Shown here piece after piece: positions 33,551 through 47,975 of a stretch of DNA of 64,000 nt. Position 1 is the first letter of the stretch. Every line of letters starts with the position of its first letter. The notes under the pieces are model-generated. The model did no database searches, was not told the DNA's origin, and was given only the letters and a program-made list of their open reading frames with translations. Source of the DNA: Spirochaetaceae bacterium (lineage in GTDB: Bacteria; Spirochaetota; Leptospiria; Leptospirales; Leptonemataceae); the NCBI GenBank assembly GCA_002729885.1, contig PBUB01000030.1:1-64000 (forward strand). The letters are read 5' to 3'. Position numbers and translations under genes: made by a program.

Positions 33551-35950
33551 TTAGCCAAGGGAATCCAGCTCTTCCTGAAATCCGGAAGATAGAATGGGAA
33601 ATCGAAAGTAGGTTCTTGGATCTATGTTTTCATCATCCAGATGAAAGGACACTGCAATGCGCTCTCGTTTCCATTGATTGCGAGACCATAGCTGGAAGTA
33701 CTTTCGAATGGACTGTATCAACTCTGTGCGACTGTAATCGTTTTGAAATGGTCGATAGTTCGTTGTGCCCGGGAACTGCGGGTCTGAGCCAGATACGGGC
33801 GATGCAGGTATTTCGTTTTCTGCATTGGATGGATTCGATGTGCCGGATTTGCTTCTTACCGGAAGTTTTAGATCGCCCATGAGCCGTTCCAGGATCTCGG
33901 CCGGTCCCATGCGATCTCGCACAGCCAGTTTCTGGATTCGGTTTAATAGGTCATAGGCCATGAGATCGGATTCATCGGTTTGATGCTGATCTTCCGGTCG
34001 CAGCTCTGCTGTAGGTTGTTGTTCGTTGATGGCTTTCAGGGAGGGAATGGAACCGAACCAGGGATCCCCCTGTTTTTCCATAAAGATCAACCAGGCACGA
34101 ATGAAGTTTTTGTCTATACCTGCAATGGGGGCAATTCCTCCGGAAGTGTCACCATCCATGGTGCAATACCCTACAGCCCCTTCGCTGCGATTACCGGTGG
34201 CGATGAGCAAACTTCCTGTGGCGTTTGCCAGCATCCATACGAAAGGACTTCTGGCTCTGGCCTGAATATTTTGAAGCACCAGATCATCGCTATTCCAGTC
34301 CAGTTTGCGATCATAGGCCTGCTCGTAGGCCCCGATGTAATCCGCTACAATGTTCTGGATCTGCACATCCTGATGATGGCTACCCAGAGAGTCTGCAATC
34401 ACATTTGCAGCATCCCTGGTGGTATCGGAGCTTTGATCGGTGCCCTGGTATACGGTGAACAGGAGATGTTTCACCAGGGCTTCAGGCCCGGCTGCTTCAT
34501 CGGCGCTCTGCGCATCTGAACTCTGCAATTCGCCGCGAATCCGTTCATCCTCAAGCAAGTCTTCTCTGTGAATGGCTTCCAGGAACCCTTTGAGGCCCAG
34601 TTCAGCAATGCCAAAGCGAACCATTCTTTCTACCAGAACGGCGCAGGCTCCGCTATCGGCCCCGCCTGAAAGCGAAAGCGCGTAGCCCCTGGATCGGCTT
34701 TTTCTCAAATAATCGAAAAGAGCCAGGGTAGTTGCATAGGTAAATTCCAGATAGGCATCGCCATGGCGTTTGACGATTCTTTCGTCGGCTCCCGGGCCGG
34801 CAGTTACTTCGGTGCGATTCTGCGCTGTTCTGTCGATATTGCTCTCTGCGCTGGATGAGCCCTGCGATGCTCCGGACCCCGAGCTTTCTGAGCTGGATGA
34901 ACCGGTATTGACGCTGCTGGATTTCTGGAATCCAGGGGAAGACCGGGAGTCTGAAAACCCAATGGAGCGTTCTTTGCTTCTAGATCGTGAACTGCTGGAA
35001 TGGTTTGAATCAGCTGTTTCTTCTCCAGGCAGACGAAATCCGAATTCCTTCTTGAAATGGGTTTCCAATCTTACAGTGGCGGACTCCAGAACGCTCCCAG
35101 GAGGAATGCTGATGGACTCTCTAAAGCTGTGGGTCTGAACTCTTCTCGATCGATTGGGATCTGGATCGAATTCAATGGTATGGACTGTATAGGGCTGAAA
35201 GGAAAAAGCGGGGCTTTCCAGAAGCAATTGACCTGTCTGGCAGGCCAGGGTCTGTCCATCGTAGATGGCTCTCCCGGCCTCGTTTCCTAAAAGATTAACA
35301 GATACGTAGGTGCAATGAAACGCTCTGGATGATTCCAGGGCAATCTGTCTGCGAATCCTTTGCTTGCCAATAGCGAAGTGCGAAGCCGTAGGGCTCAAGA
35401 TAACATCAAAAGAAGAACCGGCATGCTGACTGGCAGGCCGATTGTCCACCCAGGAGTCCTCGCATATCTCTACCAGGAAGCGAAACCGGCCGGTATCAAA
35501 AATACAGGGGCCGAAGGGCAGACCCTCGGAGCCGGTTTGATCCGGGCCGGACTTGTGAGGATGAAACCACCTGGGCTCATAGTGAATTCCATCCCCTGCC
35601 AGATGCTGCTTGGGCACCACCGCCGCTATTGAGCCTGCATGAACGATGGCGGACACATTATATAATAGTCCCTGATGCATCCAGGGAAGGCCCACAATTA
35701 CAGGAACCGTTCCAGCAATTCCATTGAGCTTTTCGCACAGAATATCCAGACTTTCCCGGCTACGAGTCCAGACCTCCGGCATATGAAATGCATCTTCGCA
35801 TCCATAACCGGAAATACATAGTTCAGGAAAAAGGATGGCCTCCGGTCCTGATTCCATGGCCTTCTCGGCCGCATCCTGGATTCGTCTGCGATTGCCTGCC
35901 CAGTCCATGGGGATCTGGTTTACAGAAGCTGTGGACAGGCGGATGAGCAT
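33551..35950 (-). CDS. nadE: Glutamine-dependent NAD+ synthetase with a Ser-rich linker
   Basis: Two-domain enzyme making NAD from deamido-NAD. The nitrilase-like glutaminase domain has the triad E43 (FPELC), K114 (VPKQH) and C163 (VEICED). The synthetase domain has the ATP P-loop SGGADS (428-433), and the NRSEGAVGYCTMDGDTSGGI region is intact. At 799 residues it is well above the usual 550-680: a Ser-rich low-complexity linker (about 310-390) joins the domains, and a second Asn/Pro/Ser stretch lies near 700-735. The start follows the purQ stop with no gap. Confidence 0.94.
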   Translation of the reverse strand: MLIRLSTASVNQIPMDWAGNRRRIQDAAEKAMESGPEAILFPELCISGYGCEDAFHMPEVWTRSRESLDILCEKLNGIAGTVPVIVGLPWMHQGLLYNVSAIVHAGSIAAVVPKQHLAGDGIHYEPRWFHPHKSGPDQTGSEGLPFGPCIFDTGRFRFLVEICEDSWVDNRPASQHAGSSFDVILSPTASHFAIGKQRIRRQIALESSRAFHCTYVSVNLLGNEAGRAIYDGQTLACQTGQLLLESPAFSFQPYTVHTIEFDPDPNRSRRVQTHSFRESISIPPGSVLESATVRLETHFKKEFGFRLPGEETADSNHSSSSRSRSKERSIGFSDSRSSPGFQKSSSVNTGSSSSESSGSGASQGSSSAESNIDRTAQNRTEVTAGPGADERIVKRHGDAYLEFTYATTLALFDYLRKSRSRGYALSLSGGADSGACAVLVERMVRFGIAELGLKGFLEAIHREDLLEDERIRGELQSSDAQSADEAAGPEALVKHLLFTVYQGTDQSSDTTRDAANVIADSLGSHHQDVQIQNIVADYIGAYEQAYDRKLDWNSDDLVLQNIQARARSPFVWMLANATGSLLIATGNRSEGAVGYCTMDGDTSGGIAPIAGIDKNFIRAWLIFMEKQGDPWFGSIPSLKAINEQQPTAELRPEDQHQTDESDLMAYDLLNRIQKLAVRDRMGPAEILERLMGDLKLPVRSKSGTSNPSNAENEIPASPVSGSDPQFPGTTNYRPFQNDYSRTELIQSIRKYFQLWSRNQWKRERIAVSFHLDDENIDPRTYFRFPILSSGFQEELDSLG

Positions 35951-39152: not shown

Positions 39153-39192
39153 ACAATTGTCCGGGTAAAAGATCTCAGTGCCGAATAATGGA

Positions 39193-39978
39193 TTAGATAT
39201 TGCCCGGTGGTCTTAAAAACCATCCTCGATTCAATCCTCCATCAATCGGAAGAACGGTTCCATTTATAAAAGCGGCCTCTTCGGAGGCCAGAAAGCAAAC
39301 GGCCGCTGCCACCTCTTGTGGTACACCCGCACGTCCAGGAAGATTCATAGCGGAAAGTCTTTCGATTGCCTCTTCGCTGTAGTTGCTGCGCACCCCTGGT
39401 GTATCGATGAAACCCGGTCGAATGATATTGGCGGTAATTCCATTATGCCCCTGTTCCACCGCAATGGTGCGGATCAATGCCTCCTGCGAAGCCTTAACTG
39501 CAGTATAAATTCCCTGACCGGGTCCACCCAGCTCGGCTACTGCGGAGCTAATCAGGATCCATCTGCCATAGTTTCGCTTCTTTTGTTCCGCTAGAAATTC
39601 GCTGTAGAGCTTTAATGGGAGGGCACAGTTTTGCTCGATAGCACCGCTCAAATTCTGACCATTGAGAGCATCCAGGCGTTGCAATGGGCTTCGCACATAA
39701 AAGTTCCAGATAACAATATCCGGGCAGCTCTCCGCATTACAGAAATGCAATATTTTGGTTGCGCTTTCTGGGGCGGACAGATCGGCACTCAGCATTTCAT
39801 GGCCCTTACCATCCAGCTGTGCATGTATCGATTCCAGATCCTGCAGGTTCCGGGCCACCAAAAGGACTCGGGCACCACTCCTGGCCAGGTGCAGGGCGGA
39901 TGCGGCTCCAATGCCCCGGCTGGCTCCCAGGACAAGGGCTGTCTTTCCATCTAGCAATAAGGGCTTTTGTTCCAACAT
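39193..39978 (-). CDS. Short-chain dehydrogenase/reductase (FabG-like)
   Basis: NAD(P)-dependent SDR of 261 residues. Cofactor loop LVLGASRGIGAASALHLA, a catalytic Ser region LISSAVAELGG, Tyr/Lys in YTAVKASQEALIR, and PGFIDTPG and INGTVLPIDGG are all present. GGGAGAA precedes the ATG by three bases. It follows a KASIII gene on the same strand (58-base gap), so a beta-ketoacyl intermediate is a plausible substrate. Confidence 0.9.
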   Translation of the reverse strand: MLEQKPLLLDGKTALVLGASRGIGAASALHLARSGARVLLVARNLQDLESIHAQLDGKGHEMLSADLSAPESATKILHFCNAESCPDIVIWNFYVRSPLQRLDALNGQNLSGAIEQNCALPLKLYSEFLAEQKKRNYGRWILISSAVAELGGPGQGIYTAVKASQEALIRTIAVEQGHNGITANIIRPGFIDTPGVRSNYSEEAIERLSAMNLPGRAGVPQEVAAAVCFLASEEAAFINGTVLPIDGGLNRGWFLRPPGNI

Positions 39979-40036
39979 ATTTCTCCCGGGTTAACTTAGT
40001 CTGCTTTAGCGCTTCAGGCCGGGGCCCTACCAGAGA

Positions 40037-41083
40037 TTAGACACTGATTAATAAGCTGCCCCAGGCAAGGCCACCACCCACAGCATTCAGGAAAATACGC
40101 ATTCCCGGTGAGAAACCATTTTCCAGGGCCTCGGACAGAGCAATAGGGATTGTTGCCGAACCGCAGTTGCCAAATCGTTCCAGACAGCGATAAAGCTTTC
40201 CTGAATGAGAGCCCATGGAGTCGGATAGCATATCCAGAATGGAGGAACTGGTCTGATGAGGGATATAGAGATCAATGTCATCCATGGTTCGCTCTTTTCC
40301 ATCTATTATGGCCTCCTGAGATTCCAACCATCGCGGCCTTACATCCGATGCTAAATTGGCGGATTGCCCCATAAAGTACAATCCTTGATCCAGTGCTTCA
40401 CGGATAGGCGGTAGAATTCCCGGTACTCCCATGGCATCTGCATAGCTTCCATCTGAATCCAGAAAACCAGCCAATAGCCCTCTTTGCGGATCTTTACCTT
40501 TCTGCAGTATAAGTGCTCCGGCTCCGTCCCCCGCAGCATATATGAAGGGACCATTCCTGGAAATTACTCGGCTCAAAGTTTCTGCAGAGGCAATGAGTAC
40601 GCTTCTGGCCGGTCCTGCCAGAAACTGATAGGCAATGCTTATGGCATAGATGGTACTGGAACAGCCGGATTTCATTTCAAAGGTGGCGCCCCTGTATCCC
40701 AGCATTCCTGCCACCAGAGTTCCCAGGGAAGAGGTATACCTGGGCGATGTTGTGGAAACAGCGATAAATAGATCTATTTCGCTTATATTTACACCGGTTT
40801 GCAGCAGGACCTCCTGGGCCGCTCGGTGCATCAAATCCGCGGAGTTTTCTTCATCTCCGGTCCTGGGGGATTCTGGCGGAAGGGTCCAGTGTCTCCGGGA
40901 AAAGCCTTTCCTCCGCGGATGTTCTGGATCCAGTCCCTGCTCAATCATGTTAGATTTCCAGTGGTCTCCATAAAGCAGAGCATGAATATCATCGTTACTT
41001 ACCCAGCTACCTGAAGCTGCGAAGGCTCTGGTTGCGCCCAGAAGTGCGACTCCAGGCACCGGTGTAAGTTTCAATCCAGCCAT
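40037..41083 (-). CDS. KASIII-type beta-ketoacyl synthase, copy 1
   Basis: Thiolase-fold synthase of the FabH/OleA/CerJ-like group, 348 residues. The catalytic triad reads Cys141 (MKSGCSST), His276 (IPHQTSSS) and Asn306 (FGNCGSAT). These enzymes decarboxylatively condense malonyl derivatives or join two acyl-CoAs. The N-terminal half departs from housekeeping FabH, including an Arg/His/Pro-rich stretch around residue 55-70, suggesting another acyl acceptor. It is transcribed away from the CCR gene across a 180-base shared promoter region, with the SDR downstream. Confidence 0.88.
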   Translation of the reverse strand: MAGLKLTPVPGVALLGATRAFAASGSWVSNDDIHALLYGDHWKSNMIEQGLDPEHPRRKGFSRRHWTLPPESPRTGDEENSADLMHRAAQEVLLQTGVNISEIDLFIAVSTTSPRYTSSLGTLVAGMLGYRGATFEMKSGCSSTIYAISIAYQFLAGPARSVLIASAETLSRVISRNGPFIYAAGDGAGALILQKGKDPQRGLLAGFLDSDGSYADAMGVPGILPPIREALDQGLYFMGQSANLASDVRPRWLESQEAIIDGKERTMDDIDLYIPHQTSSSILDMLSDSMGSHSGKLYRCLERFGNCGSATIPIALSEALENGFSPGMRIFLNAVGGGLAWGSLLISV

Positions 41084-41184
41084 TTTTCTTTTTTGGGATT
41101 CAGCACTTTACATTGATAGAAATTTTTTGAGCTTTCACCGTTTTTGAAGCTGAAGGGTAGGCAAAGCAAGCCCGGTGAAAACTA

Positions 41185-41218
41185 CAATATGCTAATATTG
41201 AATTATGATTGATATACT
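41185..41218. promoter_or_regulatory. Palindrome and -10-like box in the CCR/KASIII divergent region
   Basis: CAATATGCTAATATTG (41185-41200) is an inverted repeat of six-base arms around GCTA. A -10-like TATACT (41213-41218) follows for the CCR direction, without a good -35. The 41084-41263 region is AT-rich compared with its surroundings and holds no gene. An operator shared by both directions is plausible. Confidence 0.4.
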
Positions 41219-41263
41219 TTGCATTCCCGGGCATAACAGCAATCAGGAGCACTGCTACCTGGT

Positions 41264-42469
41264 ATGAATTCACTGGCCAAACCTCCCGCTCTAGGCGTGC
41301 TCCCTGCACCCGGCCCCGTGCCGGAGAGGATGCACGCTCAGGTTATTCGTCGGGAAAGATATGGAGATCCGGCGGCCGCTTTTCAAATGGAAGAGGTACC
41401 GGTTCCGCTACCGGGACCGGATGAGGTGCTGGTGGCCGTAAAAAGAGCGGGGCTGAATTATAACAATGTATGGGCTGCCCTGGGTCATCCTGTGGACGTT
41501 ATCTCCATGCGTATGAAGCAAGGGGCCAGCGAAGATTTTCATATTGGCGGATCCGATGCAGCAGGAATCGTTTATGCCACCGGTGACCGGGTAAAGGACT
41601 TCCATCCCGGAGATGAAGTGGTGGTATCGCCTGCCCGCTGGGATGCGGAGGATCCATACATTCAGGCCGGTGGGGATCCATCCATGGCGCCCAGCCTGCG
41701 TGCCTGGGGTTACGAAACGAACTGGGGATCATTCGCGCAGTTCTGTCTTGTAAAATCCTGGCAGCTGTATCCCCGGCTTCAATCATTGAACTGGGATCAG
41801 AGTGCGGTATATCTATTGTGCGGGGCCACCGCTGTGCGAATGCTTCTTCACTGGTCTCCCAATACAGTGGAATCCGGCATGCCTGTGCTGATCTGGGGCG
41901 GAGCCGGCGGGGTAGGGTCCATGGCCGTGCAGATCGTGCGAAGCGTTGGAGGGCTTCCCGTTGCAGTGGTAAACTCGCAAGAAAAGCGCACTCTGGTTGA
42001 ATCCCTGGGTGCAAAAGTTATCAACCGTTCTGAGTTTCCGGTACCTGGATTGCGGGAGGTGGCGGAGGAAAGAGGGTGGACGGTGAAAGCCGAAGCATTT
42101 CGAGAAGAATTGCTTCGATTAACAGGAGGCATATTACCTGAAATCGTTGTAGAACATCCCGGGCAGAATACCATTCCCTTATCTCAATTCTGTTGCGCCC
42201 CAGGAGGAATGATCGTTATTTGCGCGGGCACTACAGGCTATATGGCTCAGTTAAACGGATATTCTTTTGGCTCTGGAAGCCAGCGTCTCCAGGGCTCCCA
42301 TTTCGCCAGCCGGGAAGAAATTGAGACTCTACATCAAATGATTGAAGAAGGCAGGGTGGCTCCTCATCTGGGAGCTGTACATTCCTTTGAAGAAATCGGT
42401 GCCGTCCATGGAAAGATGCGAAGAAATGAACATCCTCCGGGAAATACAGCTTTTATTATCGCGGATTGA
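41264..42469 (+). CDS. ccr: Crotonyl-CoA carboxylase/reductase family enzyme
   Basis: NADPH-dependent reductive carboxylase making alkylmalonyl-CoA from enoyl-CoA. The family is recognised by GLNYNNVWAALGHPVDV, GGSDAAGIV, WGYETNWGSFAQF, LIWGGAGGVGSMAVQIV, VVEHPGQNT, VICAGTTGY, RLQGSHFA and MRRNEHPPGN. The residues I associate with CO2 binding (Asn in NYN, Glu in GYET, His in GSHF) are kept, so carboxylation is expected rather than simple reduction. 401 residues, slightly short (usually 410-450). It is the first + gene of a divergent cluster with two KASIII, an SDR and an acyl ligase. Confidence 0.9.
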   Translation: MNSLAKPPALGVLPAPGPVPERMHAQVIRRERYGDPAAAFQMEEVPVPLPGPDEVLVAVKRAGLNYNNVWAALGHPVDVISMRMKQGASEDFHIGGSDAAGIVYATGDRVKDFHPGDEVVVSPARWDAEDPYIQAGGDPSMAPSLRAWGYETNWGSFAQFCLVKSWQLYPRLQSLNWDQSAVYLLCGATAVRMLLHWSPNTVESGMPVLIWGGAGGVGSMAVQIVRSVGGLPVAVVNSQEKRTLVESLGAKVINRSEFPVPGLREVAEERGWTVKAEAFREELLRLTGGILPEIVVEHPGQNTIPLSQFCCAPGGMIVICAGTTGYMAQLNGYSFGSGSQRLQGSHFASREEIETLHQMIEEGRVAPHLGAVHSFEEIGAVHGKMRRNEHPPGNTAFIIAD

Positions 42470-42588
42470 TCCATGCAGGGAAATCTCACCACTCAACATA
42501 TCTTCCGGGAGACATCCTTGAATTTCTATTTAGTTCGTGGAATTGCCTGGATGGGCAGAGCAAATCTGACCGGAGCGAAGGTATCTCC

Positions 42589-43617
42589 ATGAGTCAACGT
42601 TACACCAGGAGAAGGCCCGGTTATCCGTCCGGCATTGTAATTTCGGGTTCCGGAGGCTTCCTACCGTCAGATCCAGTGGATAATGACACTCTGATCCAAA
42701 TGCATTCCCTGGACACTACAGCGGAATGGATTGAAAGTCATATTGGAGTGCGCCAACGCCATTTTGCAGCGGCGGATCTGGCCACCAGCGATCTGGGAGC
42801 CAGCGCTGCAAGGAGAGCCCTGGATGATGCGGGCCTGGATGCCAGAGATCTGGACCATATTCTGCTCTGTACCACCACGGGAGACTGGACATCGCCTGCT
42901 GCTGCCAATCGAATTCAGAATTTGATCGGTGCAGATTGTCCGGCGGAGGATAAACAATCCGCCTGCGCAAGCTTTCTTTTTGGTCTGGATCATGGTGCCC
43001 GTCTCATCGCCACCGGTTTAAAGCATGTAATGGTTATTGGAGCAGACATCAAATCCAGGTTTGTAAACCCCGGTGATCGACGTCTGGGGCCCATCTTCGC
43101 AGACGGTGGGGGTGCCATTGTGCTTTCCCGAGGCCAGGGCCCGGCCGGGTTGATGGGCTGCGAACTCTGGTCCGATGGCTCTCGAGCATTGAATCTGTAC
43201 ACTCCGGCCGGAGGAAGTGCTATGCCCGCTTCTGCAGAAACCGTGGCGAAGGGTTTGCATTCGGTTCAAATGACTGTGGATGGACATCAGATTTTTTCCG
43301 ACGCTGTGGAGGCCATGACCGAGCTTTGCCGACTTGTATGCGAAGAAGCCAGACTGCCCCTGGATGAGGTGGATTGCTTCATTCCACACCAGGCAAATCT
43401 AAAGATTATGAAGACCGTAGGTCAAAGATTGGGAATAGCCGAAAGTAAAACCGTGGTTACTATTGATTATACAGGCAATACCACATCGGGTACCCTTCCT
43501 TATGCCCTTGATGTGGCTCGCAGAACAGGAATGGTTTTTCCGGGAGCAAGGGTGCTTCTCACAGCCGCGGGAGCAGGATATTCCGGCGGGGCCGCCCTGT
43601 ATCAGGAGAGTACATAA
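42589..43617 (+). CDS. KASIII-type beta-ketoacyl synthase, copy 2
   Basis: 342-residue FabH-like synthase from ATG 42589 (AAGGT eight bases before); the frame is open to 42466, but the upstream part is not family-like. The FabH pattern WIESHIGVRQRHFA is present. The triad is Cys126 (KQSACASF), His267 (IPHQANLK) and Asn297 (YTGNTTSG). It is clearly different from copy 1, so the two may form a heteromeric pair or act in sequence. The ligase gene follows after 52 bases. Confidence 0.9.
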   Translation: MSQRYTRRRPGYPSGIVISGSGGFLPSDPVDNDTLIQMHSLDTTAEWIESHIGVRQRHFAAADLATSDLGASAARRALDDAGLDARDLDHILLCTTTGDWTSPAAANRIQNLIGADCPAEDKQSACASFLFGLDHGARLIATGLKHVMVIGADIKSRFVNPGDRRLGPIFADGGGAIVLSRGQGPAGLMGCELWSDGSRALNLYTPAGGSAMPASAETVAKGLHSVQMTVDGHQIFSDAVEAMTELCRLVCEEARLPLDEVDCFIPHQANLKIMKTVGQRLGIAESKTVVTIDYTGNTTSGTLPYALDVARRTGMVFPGARVLLTAAGAGYSGGAALYQEST

Positions 43618-43669
43618 TGGACTCTCAGAAACCGTGGACGGTCCTTCAAAATCAGGCACCGGAGGAAAT

Positions 43670-45223
43670 ATGTATCATTCTCTAATCGAGGTTCTGGAAT
43701 ATCGTGCTCGGTTTAGTCCGGACCGGATGGCGCTTCAAGGTGGGGCAGAAGCCACCTACGGGGAACTAAAGGCACTGTCCGTTCGCATGGCCGGCCAGCT
43801 TAGAAGCATGGGGTTCGAGCCGGGAGATCGGGTGGGACTTCTGGCATTCAACGATGCAGCTGCCATTCAACTACTGCTGGGCAGTGCCTACGCAGGCGTC
43901 ATCCCGGTAATACTGAACTGGAGGTTATCCAGGGAAGAAACGGATTTCATCCTGGAGGATGCGAATTGCAATACTGTCTTCGTTGGAAAAGACTTCCTTC
44001 CCCTGGTAGCAGATTCCGGCCGCCGGGTAGAGGAAATGCCAGTTGGTTTCTGGTCCTCTGAATCAACGGAAAGCTCGATTCAGGATGCCTGGGAATTGCC
44101 CGGGAGGGATCAGACATTTCTACAGCTCTACACTTCCGGAACTACCAGTCGGCCCAAAGGGGTGCCCATGAGCCATGCCAATGTTATGGCTTTGCTGGAG
44201 CAATTACGTCTGGAGGTGCCTTCCTTTGGATTCGGGTCGGTTAACCTGGTCTGTGCACCGTTCTTTCATATTGCCGGTATTGGTATACTATCTCTGGGCA
44301 TTCTGGGTGGCGCCACAAATGTCATTGTTCCCCGCTTTGAGCCCGGAGCTGTGATTGATGCAATTCAGACCCATCGTATAAGCCATGGACTGATGGTGCC
44401 TGCCATGCAGCAGGCTGTCATCAACCATCCAGATGCAGAAAAAGCCGATTTCTCATCATTGAAGCATCTAGTGTACGGAGCATCGCCCATCTCTCGACCA
44501 TTGCTGGAAGCGGCCCATGCACGCTTCCAATGCGATTATACCCAGGCTTACGGTCTGACCGAAACCACCGGCGTTGCAACGATTCTATCCGTCCAGGATC
44601 ATCTGGATATTCTGGGAAAGGAATCTGCCTCCACAATTGCACAGGGAAAGAGTCCGAAATCGGATAAAAGTTCCTCTGCCGGAAAGGCTGCTGCAGGAAT
44701 CGAAATACAGATTCGCAGCGAAGGCAAAATCTGCGAGGCCGGGCAAACCGGTGAGGTCTTTATTCGAGGAGCAACGGTGGTCGACTCATACTGGAACCGT
44801 CCGGATGAAAACCGAGAGAGCTTTGATAATGGTTGGTTTGCTTCCGGGGACATTGGATACCTGGACGATGAGGGATATCTATTTCTAATGGATCGAAAGA
44901 ATGATCTCATCATTTCCAAGGGAGAAAAAATCTATCCAATCGAGGTAGAACGATTCCTGGCAGAGCATCCAGATATCAACGACGTATCGGTGGTTGGAAT
45001 TCCGGATGATGAATATGGAGAAGCGGTGTGCGCATTTATTGTCGCGAATCGAAAATTCGATGTCCAGGAACTACGCGTGTGGCAACCGGATGGGCTGGCT
45101 CAGTACAAGCGGCCCAGAAGACTGGAGCATATTGATGTCCTCCCCAGAAATCCGTCCGGCAAGGTTCTTCGCAGGCAGTTAAGGGAACCTTTCTGGGCCG
45201 GCGAAGGCCGCTCGATTCACTAG
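43670..45223 (+). CDS. AMP-dependent acyl-CoA ligase/synthetase
   Basis: ANL-superfamily adenylating enzyme that activates a carboxylic acid (fatty or hydroxy acid) as acyl-AMP and usually acyl-CoA. Motifs: LYTSGTTSRPKG (about residue 153), QAYGLTETTGV (about 292), SGDIGYLDDEGY (about 392), KGEKIYPIEVE hinge, and the catalytic lysine in NPSGKVLRRQL (about 497). I start at ATG 43670 because a GGAGG precedes it and homology begins there; the frame is open to 43463, overlapping the KASIII gene. 517 residues. Last gene of the + side of the cluster. Confidence 0.93.
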   Translation: MYHSLIEVLEYRARFSPDRMALQGGAEATYGELKALSVRMAGQLRSMGFEPGDRVGLLAFNDAAAIQLLLGSAYAGVIPVILNWRLSREETDFILEDANCNTVFVGKDFLPLVADSGRRVEEMPVGFWSSESTESSIQDAWELPGRDQTFLQLYTSGTTSRPKGVPMSHANVMALLEQLRLEVPSFGFGSVNLVCAPFFHIAGIGILSLGILGGATNVIVPRFEPGAVIDAIQTHRISHGLMVPAMQQAVINHPDAEKADFSSLKHLVYGASPISRPLLEAAHARFQCDYTQAYGLTETTGVATILSVQDHLDILGKESASTIAQGKSPKSDKSSSAGKAAAGIEIQIRSEGKICEAGQTGEVFIRGATVVDSYWNRPDENRESFDNGWFASGDIGYLDDEGYLFLMDRKNDLIISKGEKIYPIEVERFLAEHPDINDVSVVGIPDDEYGEAVCAFIVANRKFDVQELRVWQPDGLAQYKRPRRLEHIDVLPRNPSGKVLRRQLREPFWAGEGRSIH

Positions 45224-45263
45224 GCTCTTCCATTCACGGAAAGGCCAATATTAGAAGGAGGCA

Positions 45264-46415
45264 TTAATTCTCTTCCAGAAGGCGCACTACCTCTCTGGCT
45301 ACATCCGGAAAGCACATACTTTTCAGATGGTAGGAATCAATTAAATCCAGACAGGGAAATCCCTGAATCTGCATGGGATCCAGAATATGAAAGCTTGCGC
45401 CTGGATGTTCTCTTTCCAGAGAACCGGTAAACTCAATGAGATTTGCTCTATGGCGGTCAAATAGATCTGCATCCTTCATCGCCTGGCGCAGTCCAGGAGT
45501 GGAAGGTGGCCAGTAGAGGATGACTTTCTTTTGATTTCTGGCCAGCATTCGAAGCGTTCTCTTAAAAAAAATCATCTGGGATCTGGCCAGGCTTAAATAC
45601 TGAATGTGCATTCGGCTGGTGATTCTTTCGTGGGAGGCCAGATCCTCGGGATCAGGGTCTGGCTGAAAATATGTTGGTCGACCTCCGCGATATTCTTTAA
45701 GGGTTTCCCTGGATTCCTGTATCAGTTGCTGCTTGATTTCCCATTGATGGAGGGCCTTCATTTCGCCGGAACCGGTGGGCACCAGGGCTACCTTGCGATT
45801 CTCAATAATGTTTCCCGGGTTGAGCGGATACTTGCTCAGCGAGATGTACTGTTTTACGAAGAATGTTTCTGCCTCATCCACACTGAATCCGCTTCCTTCA
45901 GCATCCCAGATATCTACAGGTCGGGAATCGTCCAGATCCAGGTTTTCCAGGATGAATTGAGCATCATAGGAATAGGCGAGGGAAACCTTTGTATTGGTTT
46001 TGTTTAGAATTGTGGGATCGAACTCCAGGAAAACAAAATCTACACGGTCCAGCAGTCCTGCTTCCTGAATTCTTTTCAGCCAGTAGAAATAGTAGGATGG
46101 AGTAGCCGCCGGTGCGGCGAAATTGTAGGTGTAATGTTTGCCTGTTAATCGATCGATTTCCGTATTGTTAAACTCCATGATTCGCGAGGTTCCGAACAGA
46201 AGCCCTGGCTTCAGGCCCTCCGCTTCCCGATCCGCAGCCTCAGCCAGAAATTGGCGAAAAAGCATTTCTTTGAACTGGTAATTTTCGCGTTCGAAGTTGG
46301 TCCATCGAACTGTATACTTTACAATTTCTGGATTCTTGAGAAAACGATCGGCTGTAAAGAGACCCATGATCATCAATAGTGGAATAAACAGTATTCTATA
46401 GCGTATGAAGTCCAT
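45264..46415 (-). CDS. DUF1574 / SGNH-like membrane-anchored protein
   Basis: 383 residues: one N-terminal membrane anchor (about 8-24), then a periplasmic domain with SGNH-hydrolase-like marks, LLFGTSRIMEF (Ser of block I, about residue 76) and DSYHLKS near the C-terminus (Asp-x-x-His). It resembles DUF1574, common in Leptospira and usually beside MBOAT genes, analogous to AlgJ/AlgX in alginate acetylation. It likely transfers or removes acyl groups on an exported glycan. It lies 91 bases after the MBOAT gene. Confidence 0.8.
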   Translation of the reverse strand: MDFIRYRILFIPLLMIMGLFTADRFLKNPEIVKYTVRWTNFERENYQFKEMLFRQFLAEAADREAEGLKPGLLFGTSRIMEFNNTEIDRLTGKHYTYNFAAPAATPSYYFYWLKRIQEAGLLDRVDFVFLEFDPTILNKTNTKVSLAYSYDAQFILENLDLDDSRPVDIWDAEGSGFSVDEAETFFVKQYISLSKYPLNPGNIIENRKVALVPTGSGEMKALHQWEIKQQLIQESRETLKEYRGGRPTYFQPDPDPEDLASHERITSRMHIQYLSLARSQMIFFKRTLRMLARNQKKVILYWPPSTPGLRQAMKDADLFDRHRANLIEFTGSLEREHPGASFHILDPMQIQGFPCLDLIDSYHLKSMCFPDVAREVVRLLEEN

Positions 46416-46506
46416 TATCTCACCTTTGTATGTGGCTGGCCCTGATCGGCGTTTACCCTCACCTTTCTAAACCACCGGTCCTTTCCTGAATCTACCAGTA
46501 CCCTAT

Positions 46507-47961
46507 TTAAAACTTAAAGTAGAAAAAATCCTCTGAACCCGGCGCGAAAGAGCCCAGCAGGGCAGCCACGATGAAGCCCAGAACGAATAAGGCCGGATAA
46601 TAGATCCAGATTCTTTGCTCCTTGATCCTGTAAGGGCGGAACTGAAAAAGATTGAAAACCATGGCAGCCAGAAATGCACTGAAGAACCATCCCGTGTACA
46701 CGGATCGTTCTCCCCGGGCTCCAGAAAACATTCGTTCATACATGGTACCGGCTGTTTCCATATCCGGCGTAATAAACATGACGAAGCCGGCTCCCAGTAT
46801 CAACAATGTGTAGATCGGACCTGTAATAGCCTGGAGACTGCGAAGCCAGGGCCATTTCTCGGACAGAACCGGAACAAGGCCCTGTTTTTGGAATCTTCGA
46901 TACTGAATTTCCAGGGCAATGAAGCAGCCATGATACACCCCCAGAAGCAGATAGTTATAGGAGGCCCCATGCCAGAGACCTACCATGGCCCAGGTCAGAA
47001 TTACATTGAACTGAGTGCGAAGGAAAGACACCGATTGTCCACCCATGGCAATGTAAACATAGTCGCGAAGCCAGGAAGTAAGTGTACGGTGCCAGTTGTT
47101 CCAGAGAGCGCGAACGGAACGGCTGAAATAGGGAGCAAAGAAGTTTTCAGGAAGTTCAATGCCCAGTAGCTTTCCCTGTCCCCGGGCCAGGTCCGTATAG
47201 CCAGAGAAATCGCAATACAACTGGGCTCCAAAGGCAAAACAGCCGGCCACCAGTGTGAACCAGTCAAAGCGTTCCGGCTGACCGAAAATAAGAGCTGTAT
47301 GAGGTACCAGGTTGTCGGCAATCAGGATCTTTTTAACTACTCCCTGAATTATTAGATAGATTCCAGAAATTAGTTTTTGATGGTCCGGCTTGATGGAGTA
47401 AGGATCCTCAATCTGGTGAAAAAACTCGCTGTGTCGCACGATGGGGCCGGCTACCAGCTGAGGAAAGAACGTAATGAATGTCAGATATTGCAGAAGACTG
47501 TGTCGACCGGAGATTTCGCCCCGGTAGGTGTCCACTGCGTAAGCGATTAACTGAAAGGTATAGAAGCTAATCGCCAGCGGTAGTATGATTCCCTTGACCG
47601 AGAATTCGGAGATCAGCAATTCGTTGAAAGCTTCCCTTTGAAACAGAGCAATACCGGTGATGTCCTGCAGTATTTGAAGGAAGAAGTAAAAATACTTGAA
47701 GAAGAACAGATTGCCCGCATCCAGAGTTACGAGAGCGATAAGCCAGCCCTTTTTCGCCGGTGATTTCCGAATCTGAACAACAAGAAAGTAGTTTAGAAGT
47801 ACAATGGAAAGAAAGTGCACGGCGAAGGGTGGAGACCAGAAGCCGTAGAAAAATATGGAAGAGAGGACGACGAGATAGAGTTTAGCGGATCCGCGGACAC
47901 TCCAGTATATTACATAGATAAATACAAAGAAAATTAGAAATATTGCTGTGTTGAATAGCAT
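46507..47961 (-). CDS. MBOAT family O-acyltransferase (AlgI-like)
   Basis: Multi-pass membrane acyltransferase, 484 residues with about ten membrane segments. AlgI-like features are PLAISFYTFQLIAYAVD near the first third, FPQLVAGPIVRH, the PENFFAPYFSRSVRALWNNWHRTLTSWLRDY block, and the catalytic histidine in GLWHGASYNYLLLG. It passes an acyl group across the membrane for O-acylation of an envelope glycan. It starts 14 bases after the purC stop and is followed by its likely periplasmic partner (DUF1574). Confidence 0.93.
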   Translation of the reverse strand: MLFNTAIFLIFFVFIYVIYWSVRGSAKLYLVVLSSIFFYGFWSPPFAVHFLSIVLLNYFLVVQIRKSPAKKGWLIALVTLDAGNLFFFKYFYFFLQILQDITGIALFQREAFNELLISEFSVKGIILPLAISFYTFQLIAYAVDTYRGEISGRHSLLQYLTFITFFPQLVAGPIVRHSEFFHQIEDPYSIKPDHQKLISGIYLIIQGVVKKILIADNLVPHTALIFGQPERFDWFTLVAGCFAFGAQLYCDFSGYTDLARGQGKLLGIELPENFFAPYFSRSVRALWNNWHRTLTSWLRDYVYIAMGGQSVSFLRTQFNVILTWAMVGLWHGASYNYLLLGVYHGCFIALEIQYRRFQKQGLVPVLSEKWPWLRSLQAITGPIYTLLILGAGFVMFITPDMETAGTMYERMFSGARGERSVYTGWFFSAFLAAMVFNLFQFRPYRIKEQRIWIYYPALFVLGFIVAALLGSFAPGSEDFFYFKF

Positions 47962-47975
47962 GCGGCAATCCAGAC

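Follow-up and report, generated by a model that had tools for sequence, protein, structure and literature searches.

A Seven-Gene Island of Leptospirales That May Couple Acyl Synthesis to Envelope Acyl Transfer

Organization and Borders of the Island

The window analyzed here is a stretch of 64,000 nucleotides from a Spirochaetaceae bacterium of the order Leptospirales (contig PBUB01000030.1 of assembly GCA_002729885.1; genome G000 below). It carries an 8.8-kb island of seven genes, encoding a short-chain dehydrogenase/reductase (SDR), two KASIII proteins (KASIII-1 and KASIII-2), a crotonyl-CoA carboxylase/reductase (CCR), an ANL acyl-CoA ligase, a DUF1574 protein, and an MBOAT protein (Table 1). 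The original prediction, made from the window alone, described a divergent cluster of five genes around a 180-base region, which is the start-to-start gap between KASIII-1 and the CCR. These five open reading frames, spanning 39193–45223, are confirmed in position, strand, and family, but the boundary was drawn too short: comparison with the empty site of related species gives seven genes, the DUF1574 and MBOAT genes having been missed.

Table 1. Features of the island in the window.
Feature	Coordinates	Strand	Supporting matches and residues
SDR, FabG-like; proposed 3-oxoacyl reductase	39193..39978	-	PF13561 129 bits; motif GASRGIG at 18, S144-145, Y158-x3-K162
KASIII-1, divergent KASIII subfamily	40037..41083	-	PF08541/PF08545; C141/H276/N306 intact
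Divergent intergenic region	41084..41263		180 bp
CCR, second CCR paralog of the genome	41264..42469	+	TIGR01751 429 bits
KASIII-2, FabH-like	42589..43617	+	PRK09352 281 bits; C126/H267/N297 (numbered from ATG 42589)
ANL acyl-CoA ligase	43670..45223	+	PF00501; motifs YTSGTTSRPKG, YGLTETTG, GDIGYLD, PSGKVL
DUF1574 protein (PF07611, SGNH clan); proposed final acyl transferase	45264..46415	-	S77, N98, D360, H363; predicted N-terminal helix
MBOAT protein; proposed trans-membrane acyl carrier	46507..47961	-	PF03062 108 bits; LWHG His331; C-terminal FFYFKF 479-484
Whole 8.8-kb island	39153..47975		Present in G000 and G004; G001 and G003 empty at the same site

The window genome was compared at the island site with four congeners (G001, G002, G003, and G004), and the island is carried by two of these five species, G000 and G004. 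The gene order in G001 and G003 is nadE-purQ-purS-MBL-WD40-purC-(163-aa gene)-fliK, where the WD40 gene abuts purC (at a distance of about 150 bp in locus L054), whereas exactly the seven genes lie between WD40 and purC in the window and in G004. The MBL gene stands directly beside purC in G002, and the island is absent there too. Since WD40 and purC touch in G001 and G003, positions 39153–47975 constitute one clean insertion block of seven genes. This empty-site comparison sets the island borders without any functional assumption and leaves the MBL and WD40 genes outside. Membership of these two genes in the cluster, with the MBL considered as a PqsE-like component, is rejected, as both remain in place where the island is absent. 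That the seven genes form one inherited unit, present or absent as a block at one site, is well supported. The block may have been either gained by G000 and G004 or lost by the other congeners; its GC content (0.505) equals that of its surroundings (0.503) and, therefore, gives no sign of recent foreign origin. Compared with their G004 orthologs, the five genes first described are under purifying selection (pN 0.12–0.29), with synonymous sites near saturation. As for the flanking genes, purC of G003 (G003:C6:2999-3874) contains one in-frame TGA, perhaps an assembly error.

Two gene starts were revised on the basis of ribosome-binding sites and orthologs, from TTG 42466 to ATG 42589 for KASIII-2 and from TTG 43463 to ATG 43670, just downstream of a GGAGG, for the ligase. 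The TTG starts are mechanical calls, and the 155-nt overlap that they create between the two genes is, therefore, not real. The KASIII-2 ortholog of G004 (L022:10947-11969) has no ATG, GTG, or TTG in its first 60-odd codons, and its alignment suggests an ATT start. Upstream of the CCR, the stretch AATTATGATTGATATACT (41201–41218) has 17 of its 18 positions in common with G004, while the rest of the intergenic region has diverged; it is a possible promoter or operator. No sigma-70-like promoter was called in 41084–41263.

Conservation of the Core in Relatives

Full-length matches to the KASIII-1 family occur in five of 30 genomes of the order (G000, G004, G007, G023, and G029), and no further one was found among 296 genomes of the phylum. 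Across 84,980 species genomes, a pattern scan brought up nothing beyond four known loci, with a pattern narrow enough that the family may occur more widely. All five carriers also have the ANL ligase, the SDR, and KASIII-2 at the locus. The SDR orthologs (38–61%) lie inside the island in G004 and next to KASIII-2 in the other three genomes (G007, G023, and G029), where the ANL-SDR-KASIII-2-KASIII-1 genes are contiguous, in that order and on one strand. The view that this is a conserved acyl-biosynthetic locus of Leptospirales is thus borne out, the core genes being found together and contiguous in other genomes, not scattered among them.

A CCR paralog belongs to the cluster in four of the five carriers (G000, G004, G023, and G029). 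The association with an MBOAT gene is also repeated, one being located near the core in all five carriers: in G023 and G029, MBOAT, DUF1574, fatty-acid desaturase, and CCR genes occupy the same region of roughly 10–12 kb, with the MBOAT gene between KASIII-1 and the CCR. As the MBOATs of the clusters belong to different subfamilies, this link arose more than once. A protein of about 400 aa, of no known family, is encoded beside the MBOAT of these two genomes (in two copies in G023); an SGNH-like assignment of this protein proved wrong, as it has neither a Pfam or NCBIfam match nor similarity to DUF1574. In G007, the gene beside KASIII-1 (L030:14455-15123) has a weak match to the leptospiral surface adhesin Lsa25 (59.6 bits for a cut-off of 260).

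The KASIII Pair

KASIII-1 scores 148 bits against the FabH model PRK09352, under the cut-off of 249, and possesses a family-specific N-terminal stretch (about residues 30–64). KASIII-2 passes the same cut-off, but its 250 bits against TIGR00747 remain under the cut-off of that model. The catalytic residues were originally described as intact in both KASIII and in the CCR, and they are: both Cys-His-Asn triads are present, and the CO2 pocket of the CCR is kept too. Each KASIII forms its own clade in the tree (100/100 support), apart from the other spirochaete FabH and the order's other KASIII. The two occur together in all five carriers; they are direct neighbors in three, and in the other two the CCR separates them, at a distance of about 1.5 kb. 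They possibly constitute a heteromeric condensing enzyme, in which KASIII-1 may act as a partner subunit.

KASIII-2, with KASIII-1, could instead be the species' housekeeping FabH system, moved beside a spare CCR. It passes the FabH subfamily cut-off, no other FabH was found in G000, and both proteins share with housekeeping FabH the fold, the catalytic triad, and the best solved-structure matches. Nevertheless, the congeners G001 and G003 lack both KASIII, and the tree places KASIII-2 with the cluster copies alone, away from other spirochaete FabH. Patchy distribution, constant pairing, and clustering are further differences from housekeeping FabH, and many relatives have no FabH. Distribution and tree thus reject this explanation, which is very improbable, and the pair remains distinct from housekeeping FabH, as the original prediction needed it to be. 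An order-wide scan detected no FabH-type KASIII above thiolase-level noise in G001, G005, G008, G009, G022, and G024.

Head-to-head condensation yielding olefins or beta-lactones, as carried out by OleABCD, would account for the SDR and the AMP-dependent ligase, which resemble OleD and OleC, and the KASIII fold also matches OleA. On the other hand, the island has no alpha/beta-hydrolase (OleB), an OleABCD set needs no CCR, and KASIII-1 matches FabH (110 bits) far better than OleA (about 39 bits). The cluster had already been set apart from OleABCD loci, rightly so, and this route is the most improbable of those considered.

CCR, SDR, and Acyl-CoA Ligase

The CCR matches TIGR01751 over its full length, above the cut-off of 378.55 bits. 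Its CO2 pocket is kept (N67, Y150, E151, and H346, aligning with N77/F166/E167/H361 of CinF), with a Tyr as in the Rhodobacter CCR; the CO2-holding residues of the Kitasatospora enzyme KsCcr are N81/F170/E171/H365 (PMC10966969). The residue following the catalytic His is F347, a Phe as in the Rhodobacter enzyme, while CinF has a Gly. The change of Val350 to Gly in AntE, a position mapped to the F347 column by the single residue that differs between two AntE chains, widened the substrate range. F347 thus gives a weak hint of a short CCR substrate, and A147, which matches CinF, makes the size hints mixed.

Although it shares the pocket and this Phe with the CCR of the ethylmalonyl-CoA pathway in Rhodobacter, the window CCR differs from it as a fast-evolving second paralog, in which the loop LRYLWMRQKR of most CCRs is replaced by NGYSFGSGSQR. 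The cluster CCRs nest inside the order's own CCR family. Their single origin is possible on the basis of the tree but is not secured: support is 95/96 in the full tree, where long branches meet, and the pairs separate when built apart. The other CCR of the genome (G000:C35:55014-56204; L021), more conserved and family-wide, stands beside an ABC transporter, a response regulator, and an HD-domain gene, and no ethylmalonyl-CoA pathway gene was recognized among the five neighbors scanned.

The active-site residues of the SDR (Y158/K162) and the motifs of the ligase are intact. Fatty-acyl-CoA ligases are the best matches of the latter, which scores 440 bits against PRK06187, under the cut-off of 476.

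Fatty Acid Synthesis in the Window Genome

No polyketide synthase (PKS) was found in G000, where the single strong PF00109 ketosynthase lies inside a type-I fatty acid synthase (FAS); no free-standing FabF-type ketosynthase was found either. This type-I FAS, of the fungal/mycobacterial kind, counts 3391 aa (G000:C28; L031:8257-18432, minus strand) and adjoins a fused biotin-dependent carboxylase of 1955 aa (L031:2004-7871, minus strand). Type-I FAS is present in three of the 48 genomes of the class (G000, G001, and G010), so its replacement of FAS-II was rejected as a general reason for the absence of FabH. Acyl carrier protein (ACP) occurs in G000 as one free-standing ACP beside a FabG-like SDR and as a domain within the type-I FAS. 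The suggestion of a branched product made without an ACP or PKS consequently holds for PKS in the whole genome, and for ACP in the cluster only.

The combination of a FabH-like KASIII, an acyl-CoA ligase, and a CCR recalls RevR (FabH homologue), RevS (acyl-CoA ligase), and RevT (CCR), which are implicated in the supply of alkylmalonyl-CoA extenders (PMC5187497). Two KASIII instead of one, an additional SDR, and the MBOAT and SGNH proteins distinguish the island from such cassettes, and with no PKS in the cluster or the genome, a PKS extender cassette is rejected. The KASIII, CCR, ligase, and SDR might still feed an alkylmalonyl-CoA extender to the cell's FAS, leading to branched membrane lipids, and G000 does have a type-I FAS. 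However, no trace of type-I FAS was seen in G004 (a 92% complete genome), which has the cassette as well; there is no PKS, one KASIII would suffice, and no CCR was found near the G007 core. Such a role is, therefore, rather unlikely.

The MBOAT–DUF1574 Pair

The C-terminus of the island MBOAT (FFYFKF, with Tyr481) fits the acyl-shuttle motif FXYXXF, whose Tyr carries the acyl group in PatA and which is proposed to act likewise in other bacterial MBOAT-SGNH pairs (PMC12148441). In the DUF1574 protein, S77, N98, D360, and H363 are conserved, and the Ser, Asp, and His are invariant in four cluster copies. Near the top of a fold search with its 66-pLDDT model are SGNH/GDSL esterases and PatB, none with an E-value better than 4e-3; DUF1574 is listed as an SGNH family without known activity (PMC9487903). 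Judging from these motifs, the two proteins look like an envelope O-acyltransferase pair. DUF1574/SGNH and MBOAT point to extracytoplasmic O-acylation and not to a free lipid.

The conserved catalytic His of the MBOAT, the C-terminal FXYXXF, and the neighboring SGNH protein with Ser/Asp/His are shared with known MBOAT-SGNH acyltransferases (PatA/PatB, AlgI/AlgJ/AlgX, and DltB/DltD). The known pairs use acetyl-CoA or a D-Ala-carrier, whereas the island pair travels with five acyl-synthesis enzymes. D-alanylation of the Dlt type also differs by its DltC-type carrier, which the island does not have; moreover, the ligase is nearest to fatty-acyl-CoA ligases, and the MBOAT scores 149 bits against the DltB model, under the cut-off of 375. 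An ortholog of the window MBOAT (83%) was found only in the one congener with the cassette (G004). Every MBOAT of the order that was inspected ends in a FXYXXF-type motif.

Proposed Function and Alternatives

The preferred interpretation is that a dedicated acyl-synthesis cassette (ANL ligase, KASIII-1/KASIII-2, SDR, and CCR) is coupled to an envelope acyltransferase of the MBOAT-SGNH type (MBOAT and DUF1574), and we give it roughly even chances of being right. The order of the enzymes, the product, the acceptor, and CoA as the acyl donor are what we infer as follows. The ANL ligase would activate an acid to an acyl-CoA, which the adjacent KASIII pair would extend, and the SDR would reduce the 3-oxo group. 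The CCR would convert an enoyl-CoA, by reductive carboxylation, into an alkylmalonyl-CoA that serves as extender; it may supply this extender, giving an alpha-branched chain, or only reduce the enoyl group. The cassette would presumably deliver a reduced, probably alpha-alkyl-branched acyl-CoA, carrying an alpha-alkyl-3-hydroxyacyl or a comparable short branched group. The acyl would then be loaded on Tyr481 of FFYFKF in the MBOAT, which would shuttle it through the membrane to Ser77 in the DUF1574 protein; the latter would transfer it to a glycan or protein at the surface. The coupling of the cassette to export is moderately supported.

Several observations weigh against this interpretation. 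The order is rich in MBOAT genes (9–13 per genome of 3.6–5.8 Mb) and DUF1574 genes (typically 4–8 per genome), and a single adjacency could be due to chance. In G007, the MBOAT lies 4.5 kb from the core, near which no CCR was found. The cluster has no dehydratase to make the enoyl-CoA for the CCR, and such an enzyme must come from elsewhere. Asn replaces the catalytic His in the fast-evolving KASIII-1 of G023 (L029:10373-11437; end branch 1.12), and decarboxylating condensation by KASIII-1 may, therefore, not hold for every carrier. In addition, all four of the carrier records that have names were assembled from metagenomes. Given the lack of a nearby CCR in G007 and of this His in G023, either the product is probably lineage-dependent or KASIII-1 is a partner subunit. 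As both gene families and the shuttle motif are frequent in the order, the MBOAT–DUF1574 pair by itself is unremarkable. Its joint presence or absence with the acyl-synthesis genes within the genus is unusual, as is the occurrence of a different MBOAT subfamily inside the G023 and G029 clusters. The probability that an MBOAT is found nearby by chance is estimated at a few percent per locus, from the number of MBOATs per genome and assuming random placement.

Alternatively, the cassette could make a diffusible small molecule, such as a signal or an alkyl-ketone, in the manner of PqsA/B/C/D, with the MBOAT and DUF1574 forming a separate envelope-acetylation pair, unrelated to it but located in the same island. 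An ANL ligase with more than one FabH-like protein follows the PqsABCD logic, in which the FabH-like PqsBC acts as a condensing enzyme (PMC4807248). Among solved KASIII, PqsD is one of those closer to KASIII-1, and the G007 core has no directly adjacent MBOAT. The island nevertheless differs from PqsABCD in several respects: the nearby MBL is outside, leaving no PqsE counterpart, both window KASIII retain the catalytic Cys, and a CCR and an SDR are present. The MBOAT position between KASIII-1 and the CCR in G023 and G029 also argues against unrelated neighbors. This alternative is unlikely, although it deserves slightly more credence than extender supply to the FAS.

A more specific form of the envelope interpretation is that the paired KASIII of a new subfamily and the CCR make an alpha-alkyl-beta-hydroxyacyl group of the mycolate type, attached outside by MBOAT/DUF1574. 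The mycolate-type motif is otherwise built with an acyl-CoA carboxylase and a PKS, where the proposed system would use reductive carboxylation. This version is doubtful, a shade more so than the extender hypothesis.

If the coupling is real, MBOAT-SGNH pairs would not be restricted to acetyl or D-alanyl groups from central metabolism, since one such pair would be packaged with its own custom-acyl factory. The DUF1574 family, functionless so far and abundant in Leptospirales, would gain a testable role, and the use of CCRs would extend beyond polyketide extenders and carbon assimilation. No paper naming crotonyl-CoA carboxylase and MBOAT together was found in the open-access literature.

Elsewhere in the window, the glutamine-dependent NAD synthetase (33551–35950) presents a long Ser-rich low-complexity stretch, which separates its two domains.

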